Source of the DNA: an uncultured Actinomycetes bacterium
GTDB lineage: Bacteria > Actinomycetota > Acidimicrobiia > IMCC26256 > PALSA-555
Assembly (NCBI GenBank): GCA_903899845.1
Contig: CAIUKV010000229.1
Coordinates: 1 to 49,667 of the forward strand
DNA: 49,667 nt
Reading direction: 5' to 3'
The position numbers and the translations under genes were made by a program. Shown one piece after another: positions 18,020-29,780 of this stretch. Within the stretch, counting starts at the first letter, position 1. Each line of letters starts with the position of its first letter. The notes below the pieces were generated by a model, which was not told the origin of the DNA, did not search any database, and saw nothing but the letters and a program-made list of their open reading frames with translations.

Positions 18020-18826
18020 TCAGGGTCCGGCCGGGTCCGTCCGTTCGGACAGGTCCGGCACCTGTCCGACGGCACCCTCCACCCGGGGGCCGGGGACCCG
18101 GCGGAACCCGTACGGGGTCGCGGGCCGCCCCGGCTGGCACACCCAGCAGGATCCGGTGGCCTCGGCCGGGGCCTGGGCCGCGGTCACCACCGCCTCGGCG
18201 ATCTGCGCCGGGTCCATCAGCGGGAACCCGGCGGCGTCGAGGGCCTCGCGGATCTCGGGCCCGAGGATGGCGGTGTCGGTGAGGCCGGGGCACACGGCGT
18301 GCACCGCGATGCCGTCGTCGGCCAGTCCGGGGGCGATGGACCGCACGAGGCCGACGACCGCGTGCTTGGTGAGGGCGTAGACGGGGTCGGGGGCGAAGGC
18401 CATGAGGCCGGCCAGGGACGCCGTGGCCACGATGACCCCGCCGCCGCGGGCCCGCATCGCCCGGATCGCGGCGCGGGCCGTGAAGACCACGCCGTCGACG
18501 TTGGGCCCGAGGATGCGCCGATAGTCGGCGTCGGCGAGGTCGGCGAGGTCGGCGACGCCGATGGCGATCCCGGCGTTGGCGACCGCGAGGTCCGGTCCGC
18601 CCAGACGCGCCGCGCACTCGGCGAACGCGGTGTCGACCTCGGACGCGACGCCGACGTCGGCCACGACGGCGATGCCGCCCACGGCGTCGGCGACGACGCC
18701 GGCCGCGACCGGGTCGCGGTCGACGACGCAGACGGCCATCCCCTCGGCGGCGAGGCGGTGCACGGTGGCCCGCCCGATCCCCGACCCCCCGCCGGTGACG
18801 AGTGCGATCCGTCCGTCGAGCTCCAT
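18020..18826 (-). CDS. Short-chain dehydrogenase/reductase
   Basis: The 268-residue protein is a classical SDR. TGGGSGIG near residue 11 binds the dinucleotide, NAGIAIG is the NAG motif, and the catalytic set is S of ATASLAG with Y and K of VYALTKHA. D39-R of VVDRDP favours NAD(H). After the usual domain, a C-terminal stretch of about 40 residues (CWVCQPGRPATPYGFR onward) is present as in some mycofactocin- or cholesterol-related SDRs, but no partner gene indicates a pathway. The ATG has TACGGT 6 bases upstream on its strand. Confidence 0.9.
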   Translation of the reverse strand: MELDGRIALVTGGGSGIGRATVHRLAAEGMAVCVVDRDPVAAGVVADAVGGIAVVADVGVASEVDTAFAECAARLGGPDLAVANAGIAIGVADLADLADADYRRILGPNVDGVVFTARAAIRAMRARGGGVIVATASLAGLMAFAPDPVYALTKHAVVGLVRSIAPGLADDGIAVHAVCPGLTDTAILGPEIREALDAAGFPLMDPAQIAEAVVTAAQAPAEATGSCWVCQPGRPATPYGFRRVPGPRVEGAVGQVPDLSERTDPAGP

Positions 18827-18832
18827 GCCCGC

Positions 18833-18838
18833 ACCGTA
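18833..18838 (-). promoter_or_regulatory. -10 box (TACGGT on minus strand) of the SDR gene
   Basis: TACGGT, 6 bases (GCGGGC), then ATG 18826. The spacing fits a leaderless transcript. Confidence 0.5.
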
Positions 18839-18879
18839 TCCCGGTCCCGGCCCGGGTGCCGTCGTGCTATGACGGTCCC

Positions 18880-19914
18880 GTGCGGTTCTCGCTGTCGCTC
18901 CCGCTGCTGAAGGACCGCTCGCACGCGGATCCGTACCGCGAGACGTACGACCTGGCGGTGGTCGCCGAGGAGTGCGGGTTCGACACCGTCACCATCGGGC
19001 ACCACCACTTCATGCCCGGCAACCTCGCCGACCCGCTCACCTTCCTGGCCGCGGTCGCGGCGCGCACGTCGACCGTTCGGGTGGGCACCGGGATCTTCCA
19101 GCTGCCGATCCACAACCCGGTCCGGGTGGCCGAGCAGGTGGCCACGATCGACGAGCTCTCCGGCGGCCGCATCTCGCTCGGCGTCGGCCTCGGCTGGTGG
19201 CCGCTCGAGTACGAGGTCATGGGCTCGGACTTCGCGACCCGGGGTGCGCGGATGGAGGAGGCGTTGACCATCCTGCGGCAGGTCTGGACCGAGGAGCGCA
19301 CGAGCTTCGACGGGCGGTTCTGGTCGTTCCCCGAGCTCACCGTGCACCCCCGACCCGTGCAGCAGCCGCACCCACCCCTGTGGGTGGCGGGCGTGGCCGA
19401 CGCCGCGGTCGACCGCGCCGCCCGCCTCGGCGACGCGTGGGTGTGCGGACCGGTGCAGTCGCTGGCGAAGGCGCAGTCGTGCCTCGCGGTGTACCGCGAC
19501 GGCTGCGCCCGGGAGTCCCGGACCCCGGCGTGGATCCTGCGCCGGTACGCGTGGATCGGCTCCGACCGTCGGCAGGTGCTCGACGAGGTGCTGCCCACCT
19601 ACGTCGACGGGCTCATGGAGCACTGGCGCGAGTCGGTCGAGGACGACGTCGAGCGGGCGCTGTTCGCCCGCATCGACGCGGGCGACGACGTCGGACCCGA
19701 GGAGATCGCCGCCGACCGGCTCGTCTACGGCGCCCCCGACGACGCCGTCGCGCAGATCGCGCGCTACCGGGAGCTCACCGGCTGCGATCACGTGCACCTG
19801 GCGTTCGGTGCGGGACTCCCGGCCGACACCGGCATGGCGTCACTCGGGGACTTCGCCGCCATCGCCGAGATGATCCGGCTGGTGGGCCATGAGGTGATCC
19901 CGGCGTTCGCATGA
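18880..19914 (+). CDS. LLM class (probably F420-dependent) oxidoreductase
   Basis: The 344-residue protein has the luciferase-like monooxygenase barrel: VRFSLSLPLL start, GFDTVTIGHHHF, VGTGIFQLPIHNPVRVAEQ, SGGRISLGVGLGWWPLEY and PPLWVAGVAD. Actinobacterial members of this kind usually use F420, less often FMN. The substrate is unknown. The GTG gives the canonical N-terminus. The stop overlaps the ATG of the nucleotidyltransferase gene by 4 bases, so this oxidoreductase is physically joined to the glycosylation operon, although it might only be an upstream neighbour. Confidence 0.88.
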   Translation: MRFSLSLPLLKDRSHADPYRETYDLAVVAEECGFDTVTIGHHHFMPGNLADPLTFLAAVAARTSTVRVGTGIFQLPIHNPVRVAEQVATIDELSGGRISLGVGLGWWPLEYEVMGSDFATRGARMEEALTILRQVWTEERTSFDGRFWSFPELTVHPRPVQQPHPPLWVAGVADAAVDRAARLGDAWVCGPVQSLAKAQSCLAVYRDGCARESRTPAWILRRYAWIGSDRRQVLDEVLPTYVDGLMEHWRESVEDDVERALFARIDAGDDVGPEEIAADRLVYGAPDDAVAQIARYRELTGCDHVHLAFGAGLPADTGMASLGDFAAIAEMIRLVGHEVIPAFA

Positions 19915-21092
19915 GGCGCGCCGCGTGGGTGCGCGGCACCGACCGGATCCTGGGCCGCCCGCCCCGGGGGCCACGTCCGGCCTGGCTGCCGGCGGGTCCG
20001 GACGACCTCGTGCTGCGGGCCGCGCTGCGCGCCGACGCCGACGGGCGCTCGGCCTGGGACGCGTACTGCGCGTGGGCCGGGGTCCCGTCCCCGGAGCACG
20101 AGCGGCTCCTGCCCCTGGTCGCCGCCACCCGGGCGGCCGACAGCCCCGACGGGCCGCTGCTCGCTCGGGGCCGGGCCCGGCGGCGCCACACCCGGGTCCG
20201 CCTCCGCTGGCTCGTGCACGCGGCGGCCCCGGTCCTCGGGGACCTGGCGACGGACGGGCGCCCGGTGATGGTGCTGAAGGGCCTCCCCCTCGCCCTCCGC
20301 CACTACCACGACCCGGGCCTGCGCCCGCTGCACGACGTCGACGTGCTCGTGCGACCCCGCGACTTCGCCGCGACGCTGGACCGCCTGCGGTCCCGGGGCT
20401 ACACCACCCGCGTCGTCGTGGACCCCGCCTTCGTGGTCGATGCACGCGGCGTGGATCTGGAGGCGCCGGGGAACGGGCCCGCCCTGGACCTGCACTGGCA
20501 GGTGCACCGGTCGGTCGCCCTGCGCGGTGCCCCGGCGGCCTGGGGGCCACGGTTCTTCGACCGTGACCGACCCGACGACCCGGTCTGGGCGCGCTCGGTC
20601 CCCCTCGAGGTCGGGGGCGCGACCGTGCGGGCGCCCTCGGCGGCCGACCTGCTCGTGCACGTCATCGCCCACGGCGCCGCCGTCGGCCGGGAGCCTGCGC
20701 TGCGCTGGGCGGCCGACGCCGCCGTGCTGATCCGGGGCGGTGGCGTCGACTGGGACGTCTTGGTCGCGGACGCCGCGCGTCGCGGGGTGACGCCCGAGAT
20801 CGCCGACGCGCTCGGGTACCTCGCCGATGCGCTCGGCGTCGCGGTTCCTGCCGACGCGCGCGCCCGGCTCGACGCCATTGCGCCCGGCCGGCGCACCGTG
20901 GTGGCCTACGCGGCGCGGACCGGTCCACCTCCGCCCACCCGGATGCGGCTGCGTCGCCACGCCCTCACCTGGGCGGCCCGGACCGCCACGGAGCCGATCA
21001 GGACCTCCCTCGTGGCGATCCCCCGCTACGCCGCCGCGTTGGCCCGGCGGGACCGGACCGGTGCTGCGGGTGCCGGGAGCCCGACGCCGTGA
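19911..21092 (+). CDS. NTP_transf_5-type nucleotidyltransferase family protein
   Basis: The 393-residue protein contains VMVLKGLPLALRHY followed by DPGLRPLHDVDVLVRP, the KG and R-x3-D-x-D (D142, D144) pattern of the nucleotidyltransferase family often found beside PqqD-like and HprK-like genes. A second conserved block is PSAADLLVHVIAHGA and RWAADAAVLI. The enzyme should transfer a nucleotide to an unknown acceptor. ATGA overlap couples it to the oxidoreductase gene, and GTGA overlap couples it to the glycosyltransferase downstream. The co-occurring PqqD and kinase genes suggest action on a peptide or on a surface-polymer precursor. Confidence 0.8.
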   Translation: MRRAAWVRGTDRILGRPPRGPRPAWLPAGPDDLVLRAALRADADGRSAWDAYCAWAGVPSPEHERLLPLVAATRAADSPDGPLLARGRARRRHTRVRLRWLVHAAAPVLGDLATDGRPVMVLKGLPLALRHYHDPGLRPLHDVDVLVRPRDFAATLDRLRSRGYTTRVVVDPAFVVDARGVDLEAPGNGPALDLHWQVHRSVALRGAPAAWGPRFFDRDRPDDPVWARSVPLEVGGATVRAPSAADLLVHVIAHGAAVGREPALRWAADAAVLIRGGGVDWDVLVADAARRGVTPEIADALGYLADALGVAVPADARARLDAIAPGRRTVVAYAARTGPPPPTRMRLRRHALTWAARTATEPIRTSLVAIPRYAAALARRDRTGAAGAGSPTP

Positions 21093-22328: not shown

Positions 22329-22800
22329 TGGTCGATCGAGCGCCGGCGACGCCGACAGCGGACGGGTCGCGGGAGCCGCGGCACCCGGCCCGGTCGACGA
22401 CCGGCTGGACCAGCCCTACGAGCTGTGCACCCCGGCGGTGATCAGCGACGAGGTCGACGGTGAGATCCTGGCCATCGACCTCGAGCGCGGCATCTACTAC
22501 GTGGTCGCGCCCGCCTCCGCGGGGGTCTGGCGGGCGCTCACCACCGGGGTGCCGCCCCGAGCGATCGTCGCCGGCCGGGACCCAGCGGCGGCCAGCGCAG
22601 TGCTCGACTTCCTCGACCGCCTGCGCACGTCGGGTCTCGTGCGCGTCGCGAGCGTCCCTGCGGCCCCGACCGGTCCGGTCGAGTGGGCGGGCGGTCCGCT
22701 TGAGGTCGAGGCCCACGACGACATGGCCGACCTCCTCGGCCTCGACCCGATCCACGACGCCGACGACACGCACGGATGGCCGACGCCCCGGGAGGACTGA
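22303..22800 (+). CDS. PqqD-like peptide chaperone (RRE-type)
   Basis: The 165-residue protein contains the PqqD fold at about residues 38-115: YELCTPAVISDEVDGEILAI, then GIYYVVAPASAGVWRAL and an SAVLDFLDRL helix. PqqD domains bind the leader of a ribosomal peptide and bring it to a modifying enzyme. The acidic C-terminal tail DMADLLGLDPIHDADDTHGWP resembles the tail of PqqD-like proteins associated with HprK-like kinases. ATG 22303 is in the second repeat unit and overlaps the glycosyltransferase stop (ATGA). The end overlaps the fusion gene by 25 bases. No precursor peptide gene is evident. Confidence 0.85.
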   Translation: MTRGGLHEDGRSSAGDADSGRVAGAAAPGPVDDRLDQPYELCTPAVISDEVDGEILAIDLERGIYYVVAPASAGVWRALTTGVPPRAIVAGRDPAAASAVLDFLDRLRTSGLVRVASVPAAPTGPVEWAGGPLEVEAHDDMADLLGLDPIHDADDTHGWPTPRED

Positions 22801-25292
22801 CCGCGGCGGCGTGGGTCGCCGCGGTCCACGAGCGGTTGGCGGCGTCGGCGGTGCCCCTCGTCGGGGCGCACTGGGGCCCGGCCCGACTCCGGCACCGCTC
22901 GGCGCGCCCCGAGTGGTTCGCCCGCTTCGATGTCGCCTGGGCCCGCCCCGTCGCCGCCGGCACCGATCCGGGCGGCGGCCCCGATCGTGCGCCCGGCGTC
23001 GCTGCCGACGTCGACCTGTGCAGTGGCGCAGTCGCCGACGTCACCGACGCGATCGGCCCCCCGCCGCGCGGCGATGCCGTGGTCGCCGTCGACCGGGCGG
23101 TCCATGACGGCACCGTGACCGCATGGGACCGCGCGTCGGGTCGGGCGGTGGTGCTGCGCACCGGCCCGCCGGACGAGTACGAGCAGGTGACCCCGCTGCG
23201 CCCCCTGGTCCACTGGGTGGCGCTCGCCCGCGGTGGGGTCCTGGTGCACGCCGCCGCGATCGGACATCCGCCGCCCGACCCGCCCGACCCGCCCGACCCG
23301 GTGTCCCGCCCCGCCCGGGGAGTGCTCGTGGTGGGTGACGCCGGTTTCGGCAAGTCGACGACCACGCTCGCGGCGTTGGCCCGCGGCTGGGTCACGGCCG
23401 GCGACGACGCGGTGATGGTCCTCCCGGTCCGGACCGGGCCCGACGGGACCGCGGCGCCGGGCACGCGCTGGACGGCGAACGCGGTCTACGCCGCCGTGAA
23501 GACCAAGGTCGGCGCGGCCCACCCGCCCCCGGCCGGGCTCCCCACCCGGTCGTGGGTGATCGGCGGCCGCAAGTGGGTGCACCACCTCACCGCCACCGAC
23601 GGACGCACCCTCGTCACCGCGCTCGACGTGGTCGGGGTGGTCGTGCTCGATCCCGTCGCCGACGCAGGCGCGCCGGTGCGGCAGGTGTCCGGGGCCCGCG
23701 CCCGGACCGCAGTGGCCCCGTCGACGGTCGGCGCGCTCCCGGACCATCCGGCCGAAGTGCTCGCGCGCATCGGCGCAGTGTGCGGAGCCCATCCGGCGTT
23801 CGTCCTCCCGCGTCGCGACGTGCTCGACCGGACCGTCGCCGACCTCGACGGCATCCTCGCAACGGCCACCGAGCGGGTGGACCCGCGCGTCGACGTGGTG
23901 ATCCCCGTGCACGACGGTGCGCACCTCGTGGGCCGGGCCCTCGACAGCGTCATCGCCCAGACGGTGGGGCGCCTGCGCGTCATCGTGGTCGACGACGCGT
24001 CGACCGACGACTCCGTCGCGGTCGTGGAGGGCTGGCGCACCCGCGTCGCGGCGGCCGGGCACGCGCTGGTGGTGCGCAGGCATCCGGACAACCGTGGGGT
24101 GGCCGCCGCCCGCAACCACGGACTCGCGGCGGGTGACCATCCGTACGTCGCCTTCCTCGACCAGGACGACCGGTGGACCCACGATCACGTGGCGGTGCTC
24201 CACGCCGCCCTCGCCGACTCCGGCGCCGACGCCGCCTACGGCCGGGTCGAGTACCGGACGATCGACGGGTCGGCGCCGCCGCCGTGGGCGCGGCCGGCCT
24301 GGTTCGCCGGGGACCAGCCGGGCCACGTGTTCGGGGCCGGCCTGTTCCGGCGCTCGGCCTTCGACCGGGTCGGCCGCCTCGACGTGACCAAGGGGATGTT
24401 CGACGACGTCGACTGGTACCTGCGCCTACGCGACGGTGCGGTCCCCCCGGCCGTGGTGGACCGGGTGGTGCTCGAGCGAGGCGTCCACCCCGCGAACCAG
24501 TCGCGGGGGTCGGCGCGTGACCACGCGGGACTGCTCGGGTCGGTGCGGGCCCACCTCGCCCGGATCCGGGCGGTCGCGCCGGTGCGGCTCGACGTGGTCG
24601 TGCCGGTCCGCAACGGCGTGCGGTACATCGGCGCCGCGGTGGCCTCGGCGCTGGCCCAGGAAGGGGCTGACGTCCACGTGGTGGTCGTCGACGACGCGAG
24701 CACCGACGGCACCGCCGACCTCGTGGCCGGGTGGACCGATCCCCGGATCACGCTGGTCCGACTCGACCGGCACCGCGGCATCGGCGCCGCCCGCAACGCG
24801 GGGGTCGCCGCAGGCGGGCGGCCCTGGCTCGGGTTCCTCGACGCCGACGACCTCTGGCCTCCCGACCGCACGGCCCGGCTCGCGGCGGCCCTCGGGGCGG
24901 CGCCAGACGCCATCGCGGTCGGGCGGGTCCACGCCACGGGGGATCCCGAGGGTGATCCCCCGGAGCCCGGCACGGTCGGGGCGCTCCCGGCGGCGGTGCT
25001 CGCCGGCGGGATCCTGTGCCGGCGGTCGGTGCTCGACCGGGTGGGCCCGTTCACCGAGGACCTCCGGGTGGGCGAGTTCGTGGAGTGGCTGGCCCGGGCT
25101 CGGGTCCTCGGGGTGACCGAGGTCGACGTGCCGGAGCTCGCGCTCGTCCGGCGGCTCCACCCGGACAGCACCACCCGCACCGGCCGCCCGGCCTACCGCG
25201 ACTACCTGCGGGCGGTGGCCATGGTCCGGGCCCGGATCCGGAGCGCGGCGGGGAGCGAGGCCGGGAGCGAGGCCGGGACGGAGGCCGGATGA
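22776..25292 (+). CDS. Fusion protein: HprK-like kinase domain + two GT2 glycosyltransferase domains
   Basis: The 838-residue protein has three parts. Residues 1-350 resemble HprK-related kinases, with VLVHAAAIG, a P-loop GDAGFGKSTTT (about 186-196) and a GDDAV block. A PPDPPDPPDP stretch, from a 9-bp repeat, lies just before the P-loop. A first GT2 domain runs from DVVIPVHDG (about 370) through VVDDASTDDS to FLDQDDRW (about 463). A second GT2 domain runs from DVVVPVRNG (about 603) through VVDDASTDGT to FLDADDLW (about 688) and ends before a GSEAGSEAGTEAG tail. No membrane segment is seen. It overlaps the PqqD-like gene and is coupled by ATGA to the next gene. The target of kinase and transferases is unknown. 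Confidence 0.85.
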   Translation: MADAPGGLTAAAWVAAVHERLAASAVPLVGAHWGPARLRHRSARPEWFARFDVAWARPVAAGTDPGGGPDRAPGVAADVDLCSGAVADVTDAIGPPPRGDAVVAVDRAVHDGTVTAWDRASGRAVVLRTGPPDEYEQVTPLRPLVHWVALARGGVLVHAAAIGHPPPDPPDPPDPVSRPARGVLVVGDAGFGKSTTTLAALARGWVTAGDDAVMVLPVRTGPDGTAAPGTRWTANAVYAAVKTKVGAAHPPPAGLPTRSWVIGGRKWVHHLTATDGRTLVTALDVVGVVVLDPVADAGAPVRQVSGARARTAVAPSTVGALPDHPAEVLARIGAVCGAHPAFVLPRRDVLDRTVADLDGILATATERVDPRVDVVIPVHDGAHLVGRALDSVIAQTVGRLRVIVVDDASTDDSVAVVEGWRTRVAAAGHALVVRRHPDNRGVAAARNHGLAAGDHPYVAFLDQDDRWTHDHVAVLHAALADSGADAAYGRVEYRTIDGSAPPPWARPAWFAGDQPGHVFGAGLFRRSAFDRVGRLDVTKGMFDDVDWYLRLRDGAVPPAVVDRVVLERGVHPANQSRGSARDHAGLLGSVRAHLARIRAVAPVRLDVVVPVRNGVRYIGAAVASALAQEGADVHVVVVDDASTDGTADLVAGWTDPRITLVRLDRHRGIGAARNAGVAAGGRPWLGFLDADDLWPPDRTARLAAALGAAPDAIAVGRVHATGDPEGDPPEPGTVGALPAAVLAGGILCRRSVLDRVGPFTEDLRVGEFVEWLARARVLGVTEVDVPELALVRRLHPDSTTRTGRPAYRDYLRAVAMVRARIRSAAGSEAGSEAGTEAG
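25251..25286 (+). repeat. 12-bp tandem repeat x3 encoding a GSEA/GTEA tail
   Basis: Two GGGAGCGAGGCC units and one GGGACGGAGGCC run in frame at the very end of the fusion gene. The last unit supplies GGAGG 4 bases before ATG 25289, so the repeat also forms the ribosome-binding site of the following gene. Confidence 0.85.
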
Positions 25293-25993: not shown

Positions 25994-27100
25994 TCAGGCG
26001 CGGGGTGGGAGCCCTGCGGCGGCCCGGCCGGCCACCTCGGCGGCGTGCCCGGCCCGGAACAGCTCGACGATCGCCGGGCGCGCGATCGCCAGGATCACCA
26101 CGAACACCAGTGCCACCCCGCCGACGGCACCGACCGGCGGCAAGGCGGTGGCGGCGAGGGCGGCGACGATCAGCGCCGTCGCCGCGAGCACGCCCACGAC
26201 CGACCGCCAGGGTCGGGCGCGCACGAGATCGGCGCTGACCAACCCGACGACCAGGAGCGGCTCGATCGTGAACGCGTCGAGCGCCGTGGCTCCGTCGATG
26301 CCGAGCCGTTGGCCCCAGTAGATCGCGGTCCACGCGGTCGCCGCACCGATCACCACGGCGAACTGGAACCGCAGCCGGGGGGTGAGGATCGCCCGGCGAA
26401 CGACTAAGGAGGTCACCAGCGCACCCGCTGCGCAGCATGCGACGAGGATGAGGATCGTGTCCCACCGGGCGGTCTCGACCAGGAACAGCGCCCCGACGTA
26501 GCCGGCGGTGGCCAGCCTGCGGGCCATCCGCAGGGCCAGCGTCGCCCACACGGCGACGGTCACCCCGAGCCACCACCAGTCGGGATCGATCCGACCCTGG
26601 AAGCTGAGCGAAGGGCCCTTCGGGGCGAAGCCGAGGAGCAGCACCGGCGACGCGATCGCGGCGGTGACGGCCAGTGCGATCGCGATCGCGGCGGTGGTCT
26701 TGCGGAGCCCCTGGTGGATCAGGTCGTAGGCGATGATCCCGGGTGTGACGTAGAGGCCGGCCACGACGAAGAGCGCAAGGACCGGCGGGCCGTCCCAGAG
26801 CTGGAGGACACCCCGCAACGCGGCGTGGCTGGTCGTCGACACCACCACGCCGAGGCCGTACACCCACGGCTTGGTGACCACGGCCCAGCGCACCACGACC
26901 AGGCGGACCACCACGACGGTCAGCACGGTGAAGGCGACGATCGACCCGAGCACCGCCCATTCGCCCGCGAACAGCAGGATGGCGAGGTAGCCGGGGGTGA
27001 AGGTGCCGCCGGTGACCCGCTGCGTGCGCACGTAGAGCACCGCGACGACGATGACCGACACCAGCAGCACGAAGCGGGCGAGCTCGACGTCGAGGCTCAC
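25994..27100 (-). CDS. pgsC: PgsC/CapC-like poly-gamma-glutamate synthesis membrane protein
   Basis: The 368-residue protein is highly hydrophobic with about ten membrane segments. Near the N-terminus it has TQRVTGGTFTPGYLAI, like the G-x(2)-PGYLA motif of PgsC/CapC, and it appears to contain two CapC-like halves (a related VTPGIIAYDL occurs in the middle). PgsC works with PgsB to make poly-gamma-glutamate or a similar isopeptide polymer at the membrane. GTG 27100 overlaps the pgsB stop by 4 bases, which fixes the start. No pgsA-like transporter or hydrolase gene is visible in this window. Confidence 0.82.
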   Translation of the reverse strand: MSLDVELARFVLLVSVIVVAVLYVRTQRVTGGTFTPGYLAILLFAGEWAVLGSIVAFTVLTVVVVRLVVVRWAVVTKPWVYGLGVVVSTTSHAALRGVLQLWDGPPVLALFVVAGLYVTPGIIAYDLIHQGLRKTTAAIAIALAVTAAIASPVLLLGFAPKGPSLSFQGRIDPDWWWLGVTVAVWATLALRMARRLATAGYVGALFLVETARWDTILILVACCAAGALVTSLVVRRAILTPRLRFQFAVVIGAATAWTAIYWGQRLGIDGATALDAFTIEPLLVVGLVSADLVRARPWRSVVGVLAATALIVAALAATALPPVGAVGGVALVFVVILAIARPAIVELFRAGHAAEVAGRAAAGLPPRA

Positions 27101-28368
27101 GGGTGAACCTGATCGGGTCGGCTCCGGCGACGCGCCAGCGCACGCTCGATCCGGACGGCCGTCGTCGACTCGACGTTGGCCATCTGCACGACCAGCACGT
27201 CGGGACCGGTGGGCCGGAGTCGGCGCAGGCGCCGCACCAGCGCGCCCGCGGTGATCGCGGACCAGGTCCGCAGGGGTCGGACCTCGCGCCGGGCGAAGCC
27301 CTGCTGATGCAGGATCCGGCGCATCGGCCGGTACGCCGCGCCGGTGAGGAGCACGCGGTCGAACTCCCGACGCTCGAGGAACGCGGCGAACTCGATGCTG
27401 CGCAACGGGCGGTCCCAACGACTGTGCACGATCGCGATCCGGAACGGCCGCCTCGCCCCGGTCCGCGACGAGGCGCCGGGGCTCTCGTGGGTGTTACGGG
27501 GGTCGAGGGCGTCGAGCGCGGTGCGGGTGCTCTCCGGGTCGTTGATCGATCCGAGGTTGACGAACGTGTGGGTGGTCGTCCCGACCGTGATGCGGTCGGT
27601 CACCGGGTCCCGGGCCAGGGGCTCGTGCGACCCCGACCCCATGGCCTCGAGCGCGGTGTCGGCGTGGATGCCGAGCAGCGCCGCCACCGCCAGGACGGCG
27701 GCCACGTTGTCGGGGTGCTCGTCGGGGACCCGGGCGCGGACCGCGGCCGGCAGCCAGTCGCCGTGCACGGTCACGCACGCAGCGCCGTAGCCGCCGATGC
27801 CGGCCCGCAACGTGGCGAGCACCTCGGGATCGTGCTCGGCGGTCACGACCACGCGCGCCCCCTCGGCGACCGCGGCGTTGGACACCGCGATGGCGGCCGG
27901 GGTGAGGCCCTGGTCCTCGAGGTGGTCCGCGCGCGCGTTGGTCACCAGCGCGACGCCGGCGGCGATGATCCCCCGCTGGGTGAGGGCGATGAGCTCGGGG
28001 TTCACCGCCATGCACTCGACCACGAGGCTCCGGGCGCCGGCGGCCCGGGCCCGCCGCACCGTCGCGAACAGCTCGAGCACCGAGTGCTGCCCGGTCCGCA
28101 CGACCGGCTCGGTCGCGCCGGTGGGGGCGAGCTCCTCGGCGACCGTGCCGGTCACCCGACCCCAGGGCGCACGGTCGGCCGCCCGCAGCACCGCGTGGAG
28201 CAGCCGGACGGTGGAGGACTTCCCCCGGGTGCCCGTGACGAGGATCCGGGGGGAGAGGTCCGCGAGCGCGGCGACGTGCCGGCGGCACCGGCGATCCCAG
28301 ACCAGGACGAGGACCGTCGCGGCGAGCACCGCTGAGGTCCCGAGGGCGGGGATGATCAGTGCCTCCAC
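27097..28368 (-). CDS. pgsB: PgsB/CapB-like poly-gamma-glutamate synthase (Mur ligase fold)
   Basis: The 423-residue protein starts with one membrane anchor (IIPALGTSAVLAATVLVLVW). The Mur-ligase P-loop VTGTRGKSSTVR follows at about residues 44-55, then VVECMAVNPEL and TNARADHLEDQG, all typical of PgsB/CapB. It activates and joins glutamate or a related amino acid by gamma-amide bonds using ATP. I chose GTG 28368, which has GGAGG 4 bases upstream in the neighbouring repeat unit; GTG 28401 is in the same frame and would add 11 residues. It is followed by pgsC with a GTGA overlap. The tRNA-Arg gene is 63 bases upstream on the same strand. Confidence 0.87.
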   Translation of the reverse strand: MEALIIPALGTSAVLAATVLVLVWDRRCRRHVAALADLSPRILVTGTRGKSSTVRLLHAVLRAADRAPWGRVTGTVAEELAPTGATEPVVRTGQHSVLELFATVRRARAAGARSLVVECMAVNPELIALTQRGIIAAGVALVTNARADHLEDQGLTPAAIAVSNAAVAEGARVVVTAEHDPEVLATLRAGIGGYGAACVTVHGDWLPAAVRARVPDEHPDNVAAVLAVAALLGIHADTALEAMGSGSHEPLARDPVTDRITVGTTTHTFVNLGSINDPESTRTALDALDPRNTHESPGASSRTGARRPFRIAIVHSRWDRPLRSIEFAAFLERREFDRVLLTGAAYRPMRRILHQQGFARREVRPLRTWSAITAGALVRRLRRLRPTGPDVLVVQMANVESTTAVRIERALARRRSRPDQVHP

Positions 28369-28407
28369 CGGGCCTCCACCGGGCCTCCATCGGGCCTCCA
28401 CCGGGCC
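28364..28407 (-). repeat. 11-bp tandem repeat x4 covering the pgsB start
   Basis: On the minus strand the unit is GGCCCGGTGGA (one copy has ATG in place of GTG). Adjacent units create GGAGG, so every unit has a ribosome-binding site 4 bases before a GTG or ATG (28401, 28390, 28379, 28368). Only 28401 and 28368 are in the pgsB frame. Confidence 0.88.
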
Positions 28408-28431: not shown

Positions 28432-28503
28432 CGCCCTCGGCAGGACTCGAACCTGCGCACACGGCTCCGGAGGCCGATGCTCTATCCGCTGAGCTACGAG
28501 GGC
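28432..28503 (-). tRNA. tRNA-Arg (anticodon CCG)
   Basis: On the minus strand the cloverleaf reads as acceptor GCCCTCG, D arm GCTC-AGCGGATA-GAGC, anticodon loop CTCCGGA with anticodon CCG, variable loop GTGC, T arm GCAGG-TTCGAGT-CCTGC, acceptor CGAGGGC and discriminator G. Pairing is complete except for a T-T at the top of the anticodon stem. CCA is not encoded. It reads CGG, a frequent Arg codon in this DNA. Confidence 0.95.
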
Positions 28504-28512
28504 AGTCCGGGG

Positions 28513-28518
28513 AGGCTA
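28513..28518 (-). promoter_or_regulatory. -10 box (TAGCCT on minus strand) of tRNA-Arg
   Basis: TAGCCT ends 9 bases before the mature 5' end of the tRNA. No convincing -35 box is visible. Confidence 0.35.
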
Positions 28519-28602
28519 CCAACCTGTCGGTCGGGTCCCCGGCCCGCCGACCCGACGGCGGGTCGAACGGTCGCTAGTTTCCGGGTGGCGAGGAGGTGCG
28601 GG

Positions 28603-29151
28603 ATGTCGATCCACCGGCTGCAGCGGTCGAGGTGCATCGTGCGAGCGGTGACCGCCGGTGCGGTCGCGGTCCTGACCGCGCTCGCGTTCGCGGGCTGCGG
28701 GGGAGGGTCCGGTGGGGGGGATCGGGTCGAGCGGCGCGGGTCCGGGGAGGAGCGGTCGCTCACCGTCGCCAACCGCCTCGACACCTCGGTGGGCTTCTGG
28801 CCCTACACCGGACGGTCGGGGAGCCCGGGTGGCGTCGCGCCCGGCGAGACGGCCAGGTCCGGCGGCGCCCCGGTGCCCGGGGAGAACGACGTCTGCGTCG
28901 CTCTCGGCCAGGGCGGAGCGACCATCCGCTTGGCCGTCATCGTGGTGGGCGACGTCATGCGGGTGAGCACGCCGGCGCGGTGTCCGGGTTCCCGCCCGCA
29001 GCCGGGTGAGCCCCAGGCGGTCTGGACGGCCGAGGAGCGCTCGGGGCCCCGGCTGCTCGACGCCGGCTTCGCGGGGGGGCAGCTGTGCGCAGAGCGCCAG
29101 GGTCGTCTCGACGTTCGGGTCCGGATCGAACCGAGCACGACCCCCTGCTGA
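28603..29151 (+). CDS. Predicted lipoprotein, first of a paralogous pair
   Basis: The 182-residue protein has a basic N-terminus, a hydrophobic core and a lipobox (LAFAGC) with C32 or so, then a Gly/Ser-rich linker, so it is an exported lipoprotein. The mature part has four cysteines, the last being the C-terminal residue (STTPC). The end region GPRLLDAGFAGGQLCAERQG resembles the end of the next gene product. The ATG has AGGAGG 7 bases upstream, the strongest ribosome-binding site in this part. No known domain is recognised. Confidence 0.8.
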   Translation: MSIHRLQRSRCIVRAVTAGAVAVLTALAFAGCGGGSGGGDRVERRGSGEERSLTVANRLDTSVGFWPYTGRSGSPGGVAPGETARSGGAPVPGENDVCVALGQGGATIRLAVIVVGDVMRVSTPARCPGSRPQPGEPQAVWTAEERSGPRLLDAGFAGGQLCAERQGRLDVRVRIEPSTTPC

Positions 29152-29228
29152 GGAGCGTGGCCGGTACCGTCCGGCCTCGGGGGCGGTCGGACGAGGGCGG
29201 ATGGGCCGGGGACGGTCATGAGCGGGAG

Positions 29229-29780
29229 GTGGGAAGTGACCGGCGACGGTCGGTGGGTCGGTTGCGGGCCTCGGCGAGCCTGGCCACGGCGGTGCTGTGC
29301 GGAGTGGCCCTGCTCGGCTGCTGCGGCGGTGGGTCGGGGGAACGGTCGGACGGCCGCAGCCCCGAGCGCCAGGCTGCGCTCGACAACGTCCGGCTCTGCG
29401 TCGAGAACGGCCTCGACCAGGAGATCGACGCCAAGACCATCATCCCGTCGTCGTGGTTCAGCTCGAATCCGCTGGACCCCGGGAGGACGCACTGCGAGAG
29501 TGACTGGCAGAGCACCCCGCCCGACGTGTGCTTCGACGTCGTGCGAGCCGGTCAGATCATCGCCCGCGTGAGCGCGTCGCACGTCTTCGGCAGGATGTCC
29601 GGCTACACGCCGGAGCGCTGCGAGAACACCGACTACGTGGACGGGCGGACCCAGCTCTACGGCTCGGGCCTGGGTCGGGCTCTGCTCCGCTCGGGCACGC
29701 CCGGGGTCGAGGTGTGCGTCGACCGCTCGGCGAAGTTCACGGTGACCGCCAAGGTCCAGCGGAGCGGCTCGGCCTGCTGA
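29229..29780 (+). CDS. Predicted lipoprotein, second of a paralogous pair
   Basis: The roughly 183-residue protein has an Arg-rich N-terminus, a hydrophobic stretch and a lipobox (VALLGC), then a GGGSGERSDG linker. The mature domain is Cys-rich (VRLCVEN, RTHCESD, DVCFDV, ERCENT, VEVCVDR) and ends, like its upstream neighbour, with a terminal Cys (SGSAC). The start is uncertain: GTG 29229 has GGGAG directly before it, and GTG 29253 is an alternative. No domain is recognised. Confidence 0.75.
   Translation: MGSDRRRSVGRLRASASLATAVLCGVALLGCCGGGSGERSDGRSPERQAALDNVRLCVENGLDQEIDAKTIIPSSWFSSNPLDPGRTHCESDWQSTPPDVCFDVVRAGQIIARVSASHVFGRMSGYTPERCENTDYVDGRTQLYGSGLGRALLRSGTPGVEVCVDRSAKFTVTAKVQRSGSAC

Follow-up and report, generated by a model that had tools for sequence, protein, structure and literature searches.

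A compact operon in an uncultured Actinomycetes bacterium of the PALSA-555 lineage encodes a protein in which an HprK-like kinase domain is followed by two family 2 glycosyltransferase (GT2) domains. It lies in contig CAIUKV010000229.1 (GCA_903899845.1), of which the whole stretch analysed, 49,667 nucleotides (nt), is called here the window. The open reading frame (ORF) of the fusion starts with ATG, stays open for 838 codons and has a G+C content at third codon positions of 0.87-0.99 throughout; Pfam recognizes two Glycos_transf_2 stretches in its product (E 1.8e-57 for the protein). The other genes of the operon encode a PqqD-like protein, a family 4-type glycosyltransferase (GT4) and two proteins of NTP_transf_5 type, NTP5a and NTP5b (Table 1). 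Neighbouring genes overlap by 4 nt (NTP5a/GT4), 4 nt (GT4/PqqD), 25 nt (PqqD/fusion) and 4 nt (fusion/NTP5b), the start codon of the fusion falling within the Gly-Trp codons of the PqqD tail. Because all junctions overlap, no separate precursor or peptide gene is possible between the genes of the operon. A preliminary description of the locus had reported the PqqD-like, NTP_transf_5 and GT4 neighbours as translationally coupled, in agreement with these overlaps of 4-25 nt, but had overlooked the degenerate NTP5b gene downstream.

The fusion is genuine and old: three further genomes of Actinobacteriota retain it with an unbroken frame. The congener G001 carries the same fusion with 84-86% identity, and the same three-domain protein is found in two more distant genomes, L033 and L034. 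All three domains are under purifying selection: between the window and G001, the ratio of non-synonymous to synonymous substitution rates (dN/dS) is 0.33 in the N-terminal part of the kinase, 0.19 in the kinase core, 0.25 in the first GT2 domain (GT2a) and 0.22 in the second (GT2b), and drift is confined to the last 18 residues. An assembly error or frameshift joining separate genes, which the existence of collinear unfused versions (L042 and L085) could have suggested, can be discounted in practice, since the identical in-frame fusion occurs in four genomes that form one well-supported clade and selection acts along its entire length. The single 838-residue polypeptide of three domains, as first described, therefore stands.

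Table 1. Features of the operon and of the fusion protein (positions in the window; aa, amino acids).
Feature	Position	Strand	Basis
NTP5a, NTP_transf_5 nucleotidyltransferase-like protein, 393 aa, with an intact DxD motif (LHDVDVLV)	19911..21092	+	PF14907 E 1.1e-34; G001 orthologue
GT4-type glycosyltransferase, 405 aa	21089..22306	+	PF13692 E 8.4e-19; 4-nt overlaps on both sides
PqqD-like protein, putative lasso-type recognition element and conserved C-terminal tail, 165 aa	22303..22800	+	PF05402; family profile
Near-invariant PqqD tail DDMADLLGLDPIHDADDTHGWP	22714..22782	+	Alignments of 7 genomes and of 86 proteins; junction sequence
HprK-GT2-GT2 fusion protein, 838 aa	22776..25292	+	ORF, Pfam, homologues, dN/dS
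Predicted HprK/PEPCK-fold kinase domain, residues 1-366	22776..23873	+	AlphaFold2 model, Foldseek
His158, invariant, counterpart of BsfK His148	23247..23249	+	73 sequences; PMC10368454
P-loop GDAGFGKS (Gly187, Gly190, Gly192, Lys193, Ser194)	23334..23357	+	Conservation; lasso kinases with the same set
Asp210-Asp211, putative Mg/catalytic pair	23403..23408	+	At least 90% conserved in 73 sequences
GT2a, residues 369-600: DDAS, DQD, FDDVDW base motif	23880..24575	+	PF00535/PF10111; GT2-1 orthology
GT2b, residues 604-830: DDAS, DAD, GEFVEW	24585..25265	+	PF00535 stretch 607-726; GT2-2 orthology
Degenerate NTP_transf_5-like protein NTP5b, 227 aa	25289..25972	+	PF14907 E 0.16, 11.9 bits

Phosphoenolpyruvate carboxykinase (PEPCK) and HPr kinase/phosphatase (HPrK/P) share one kinase fold and are its classic representatives. 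As modelled, the N-terminal third of the fusion is a kinase of this fold with the catalytic set of characterised lasso-peptide kinases. Its scores lie below those of the curated HPrK/P families: Hpr_kinase_C (PF07475) matches residues 182-215, around the P-loop, with E 5e-4 and 20.0 bits (cut-off 33.3), and TIGR00679 of NCBIfam gives the fusion 18.7 bits (cut-off 240). A profile of seven family members found the HPrK/P of L. casei (1jb1) as its best match in the PDB (E 1.8e-7), over a region spanning the His, the P-loop and the Asp-Asp pair. The AlphaFold2 model of residues 1-367 (mean confidence pLDDT 87.7, pTM 0.89) was matched by Foldseek to PEPCKs (E about 1e-7, probability 1.00) and to HPrK/P 1kkl (E 1.6e-5). 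His158, Gly192 and Lys193 are invariant in 73 homologues, and conservation reaches at least 90% at Gly187, Gly190, Ser194, Asp210, Asp211, Lys242 and Lys266; the model was built on a 73-sequence alignment. The window kinase thus shares the fold, the P-loop, the catalytic His and the Asp-Asp pair of HPrK/P, and kinase activity of the domain is predicted from its sequence. An HprK-like domain, as proposed in the preliminary description, is borne out in fold and in active-site residues, with no sign of a different N-terminal fold lacking them.

The two GT2 domains give PF00535 194.4 bits (cut-off 23.3) in two stretches, each with a DDAS and a DxD motif. In GT2 enzymes, an [ED]D motif provides the catalytic base. 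GT2a has FDDVDW at this place, whereas GT2b has GEFVEW, a replacement common to the GT2b orthologues. Because the motif is replaced, sugar transfer by GT2b, if any, may follow an unusual route; of the two complete-looking GT2 domains claimed earlier, both have DDAS and DxD but the second lacks the base motif.

The origin of the fusion was examined in trees of the kinase and GT2 domains. The four fusions group together in a single clade of the kinase tree, with a branch support (SH-aLRT) of 97, and their sister clade consists of unfused kinases from a Planctomycetaceae genome (L042), a Burkholderiales genome (L065) and two Microbacteriaceae genomes (L085 and L104). Where the whole operon is visible (L042, L065 and L085), the order is PqqD, HprK, GT2, GT2, NTP_transf_5. 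In the GT2 tree, GT2a groups with the first and GT2b with the second GT2 gene of these sister operons (GT2-1 and GT2-2); the orthology follows gene order, hence the fusion arose by collinear joining of three neighbouring genes. Fusions of the kinase to a single GT2 arose at least twice elsewhere, in L053 and in a five-member clade (Nitrospirota, Myxococcota, Balneolota and Thermodesulfobacteriota). With at least three independent fusions of the kinase-GT2 pair, the idea that the two enzymes are functionally linked is supported.

The PqqD-like protein of the window taken alone scores below the Pfam threshold (PF05402, E 0.0045, 17.7 bits, cut-off 23.4). Compared with the PDB, its family profile matched the RiPP (ribosomally synthesized and post-translationally modified peptide) recognition elements (RREs) of lasso systems, TbiB1 (5v1u, E 1.1e-14) and TfuB1 (6jx3, E 1.2e-6). 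Judged from this profile, the domain is a winged helix-turn-helix RRE, nearest to lasso B1-type RREs. At their C-terminus, the PqqD-like proteins carry a tail with the consensus ...P.L...DM.DLLLLDPIH.VD..GWP, which is named by none of the libraries used. A search of 84,980 species genomes with a PqqD-like alignment yielded 199 relatives that could be confirmed; the 80 retained come from at least 10 phyla. The retrieval pattern for these 80 loci covered [LG][LA]DP[IV]H[DEQ][VAY]D, so that conservation of these residues is partly built in; the flanks DM, P-x-L and GWP are conserved though they lie outside the pattern. Moreover, in an alignment of seven proteins taken from kinase and GT2 matches, with the tail disregarded in the selection, D140, L144, D148, P149, H151, D154 and G158-W159-P160 are shared.

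Within the class, the tail is present in 13 of 395 genomes, and all 13 are among the 18 that carry a full-length kinase (Fisher p 1e-20, relatedness ignored). A fourteenth match, in G228, is out of frame and was rejected as a chance match. At a fixed position in the tail, 48 of 86 proteins have the motif [FYW]xxPx[LVI] (mean of 0.1 in shuffled sequences, relatedness ignored), whose spacing is that of the YxxPxL leader motif bound by lasso RREs (PMC10368454). The window's own clade lacks this leader-like motif and has WAGGPLEV instead. Neither a conserved Ser or Thr in the tail nor a stand-alone copy of the tail motif was found among the 86 sequences, and a profile of the tail did not find any leader peptide in the PDB, giving a chance match only (E 0.24). 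In a Gemmatimonadetes metagenome-assembled genome (L096:1140-2918, + strand), a natural PqqD-HprK fusion has the tail motif in mid-protein; its AlphaFold2 model shows both domains with confidence and the tail unplaced (residues 121-150, pLDDT about 40-63). Two further loci were observed: L033 has a second, different PqqD and HprK-like pair directly downstream of its fusion cassette (L033:15303-16432, - strand), the PqqD of which lacks the conserved tail, and another genome of the window's genus has a second window-type tailed PqqD at a contig edge (G003:C341:35-72, L154), which may precede another, cut-off fusion gene.

The combination of a PqqD-like protein with a predicted lasso-type RRE, an HprK-like kinase, one or more GT2s and an NTP_transf_5 protein recurs in at least 10 phyla. 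Culturable isolates that carry it include Kaistia adipata DSM 17808 and Yoonia tamlensis. Gene content was counted at the 45 loci where the tailed PqqD gene is flanked by 6 kb or more to either side. The neighbourhood contains a kinase at 42 of them, a GT2 at 41, an NTP_transf_5 gene at 39, and all three at 37; a GT4 is near at seven. Of seven genomes that were searched further because the fetched locus showed no kinase, six carry a full-length kinase elsewhere. The fusion is one local form of a cassette that is far more widespread in its unfused state, and of the new kind of modification system announced in the preliminary description, it is the cassette with its tailed PqqD, rather than the fusion itself, that retains the claim. 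No paper on the cassette beyond the lasso ones was found in the open-access literature (subscription papers and preprints were outside the scope of the search), and the cassette is apparently both widespread and undescribed.

The genes around these loci encode epimerases, GDP-mannose dehydratase, ATP-binding cassette (ABC) exporters, RgpF, a sulfotransferase and an FkbM methyltransferase, and in L034 polysaccharide-type ABC export genes, as read from the sequence, follow shortly downstream of the cassette. These are sugar-nucleotide and glycan-export genes, not peptide-maturation genes, and suggest a surface glycan as a possible acceptor. When neighbouring ORFs of at least 60 residues were compared, no further conserved neighbour or small-peptide family appeared beyond the five cassette families, apart from occasional genes of sugar or ABC type and from antisense shadows of known ORFs, so that the conserved small ORFs looked for beside the fusion were not found in this size range. 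Among 102 neighbouring ORFs, the 25 commonest Pfam families include no lasso gene, nor the asparagine-synthetase-like cyclase (C protein); a genome-wide search for the cyclase was not made. The lasso B2 protease (Transglut_core3, PF13471) has no match in the window's genome, and a lasso cluster proper was rejected for this reason. An anti-phage defence system was likewise rejected, as PADLOC gave no defence match. PLSDB gave no match, leaving plasmid spread unsupported, and phage protein families gave generic glycosyltransferase matches only.

Of the two NTP_transf_5 proteins, NTP5a is well above the family threshold (PF14907, 120.6 bits, cut-off 31.2). NTP5b has VHGVTV where NTP5a has HDVDV and has lost the DxD motif; its orthologues 3' of the fusion in L033 and L034 are likewise degenerate, and NTP5b is probably structural or dying. 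A second NTP_transf_5 gene of the window's genome lies away from the cassette (G000:C202:9661-10383, PF14907, 80.1 bits). Upstream of the operon, an ORF that reads as an LLM-class oxidoreductase (18802-19914, + strand) overlaps the start of NTP5a with its stop by 4 nt and may be co-transcribed with it; a similar ORF is upstream in G001. On the other side, a 379-residue PgsC/CapC-like protein (25997-27133, - strand) has two Caps_synth_CapC stretches, that is, a double-length PgsC, and is convergent with the cassette; a PgsB-like ligase gene (27097-28401) adjoins it. At 28477-29780 (+ strand), two ORFs in succession begin with signal peptides of lipoprotein-like type (AFAGCGGGSG and LLGCCGGGSG).

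The closest characterised systems are lasso-peptide kinases. BsfK of Bradymonas phosphorylates a lasso precursor, and the RRE protein BsfB1 strongly accelerates the reaction (PMC10368454). The conserved set of BsfK, H148-G163-G166-G168-K169-S170-D186-D187 (PMC10368454), has its counterpart in the cassette kinase as H158, G187, G190, G192, K193, S194, D210 and D211, which is the BsfK/PadeK set. With BsfK/BsfB1, PadeK and PsmK the cassette thus shares the catalytic set, the HprK fold and a PqqD-type RRE of the TbiB1/TfuB1 family; it differs in that there is no lasso protease in the genome and no precursor gene in the operon, and in that the window kinase is fused to two GT2 domains and the RRE has a long conserved tail. 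In pseudomycoidin, the C-terminal Ser is reported to receive a phosphate from PsmK, and the addition of one or two hexoses to this phosphate requires PsmN, which carries a nucleotidyltransferase annotation (PMC9266682, PMC8498205). The cassette likewise pairs an HprK-like kinase with a nucleotidyltransferase-type enzyme in one cluster, but it lacks a lasso scaffold and is accompanied, constantly or frequently, by GT2 and GT4 enzymes. In lasso clusters of rumen Butyrivibrio, a nucleotidyltransferase gene occurs alongside those for an HPr kinase and a GT2 (PMC7533575).

Curated families outside the lasso field are more distant. The HPr-rel-A system (TIGR04352 kinase, TIGR04353 PqqD) shares an HprK-related kinase and a PqqD-family partner, and HprK-related kinase B (TIGR04355) shares the kinase; five cassette kinases score at most 36 bits with TIGR04352 and TIGR04355 (cut-off 200), and the best score of a cassette PqqD with TIGR04353 is 17.2 bits (cut-off 35). 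The top NCBIfam match of the fusion is MftF of mycofactocin, which shares the GT2 fold (112 bits, cut-off 280). MftF works beside a PqqD-like protein; no mycofactocin genes were seen near the fusion.

The interpretation that we favour, with a probability of about 0.4, is that the operon encodes a phosphoglycosylation cassette, the kinase and two glycosyltransferases being welded into one polypeptide, and that the acceptor would be a peptide, a protein or a surface polymer. The PqqD-like protein would present the acceptor or activate the kinase, and the HprK-like domain would use a nucleoside triphosphate to phosphorylate a hydroxyl of the acceptor. The NTP_transf_5 protein would then attach a sugar to the phosphate (or a nucleotide that is exchanged at a later stage), as reported for PsmN following PsmK, and the sugar chain would be lengthened by the GT4 protein and by GT2a, with GT2b perhaps taking part. 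The order of steps, the acceptor and the product are inferred; the BsfK/BsfB1, PsmK/PsmN and Butyrivibrio parallels make phosphorylation, sugar addition to the phosphate and chain extension the simplest reading. The parts are linked by three independent kinase-GT2 fusions and one PqqD-kinase fusion. Several points weigh against such a cassette: GT2b is without the usual base motif; a separate acceptor gene was not found; NTP5a is likened to PsmN at the level of annotation only; and in the glycan context, a sugar or lipid would suit the kinase as substrate as well as a peptide would. The coupled phosphorylation and glycosylation proposed earlier draws on the kinase-glycosyltransferase link and on the close parallel studied experimentally in pseudomycoidin (PMC9266682, PMC8498205), and is weakened by the missing precursor ORF and the glycan-type neighbours.

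It is possible, although we hold it unlikely, that the operon is a pure surface-polysaccharide set, in which the kinase acts on a sugar or on a lipid-linked glycan intermediate, PqqD is only a scaffold and no peptide is modified. The sugar-nucleotide, glycan-modification and export genes nearby, the lack of room for a precursor gene in the operon and the convergent PgsB/PgsC-like genes of the window all agree with such a set; the full peptide-kinase residue set and the closeness of the PqqD domain to leader-binding lasso RREs do not. That the PqqD-like protein carries its own substrate in tethered form, with an RRE, the leader-like strand [FYW]xxPx[LVI] and an extremely conserved core-like tail modified by the kinase, NTP_transf_5 and glycosyltransferases, is doubtful, given that no Ser or Thr is conserved in the tail, that the leader-like part is degenerate in the window's clade and that the tail is internal in the L096 fusion.

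More doubtful still is a regulatory kinase that would phosphorylate the PqqD tail or the glycosyltransferases as an on/off switch, as HPrK/P does on Ser46 of HPr, the phosphate being absent from the product. HPrK/P is indeed a regulatory kinase, tail and kinase occur together in 13 of 13 genomes of one class and physical fusion suits regulation in cis, but the absence of a conserved Ser or Thr again counts against the tail as target and the constant NTP_transf_5 partner is left unexplained. Least plausible of these is an orphan RiPP tailoring module whose peptide, lasso-like or other, would be encoded at a distant site of the genome: although RRE, HprK and NTP_transf_5 are all known lasso tailoring parts, no B2 protease was found in the genome and the 25 commonest neighbour families include no lasso gene.

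In conclusion, the cassette has the parts of lasso-type RRE, kinase and nucleotidyltransferase tailoring, joined to glycosyltransferases. It falls below every curated kinase and PqqD cut-off checked, and it connects glycosyltransferases with the peptide-kinase chemistry known from lasso peptides and HPr; that fusion has occurred repeatedly suggests a single process served by kinase and sugar transfer. With few genes in one operon, it is amenable to heterologous expression, and the conserved tail of the RRE offers a handle on what the PqqD/HprK/NTP_transf_5 operons modify. Should the tail prove to be a tethered substrate, these operons, present in at least 10 bacterial phyla, would carry out protein phosphoglycosylation of a new class.

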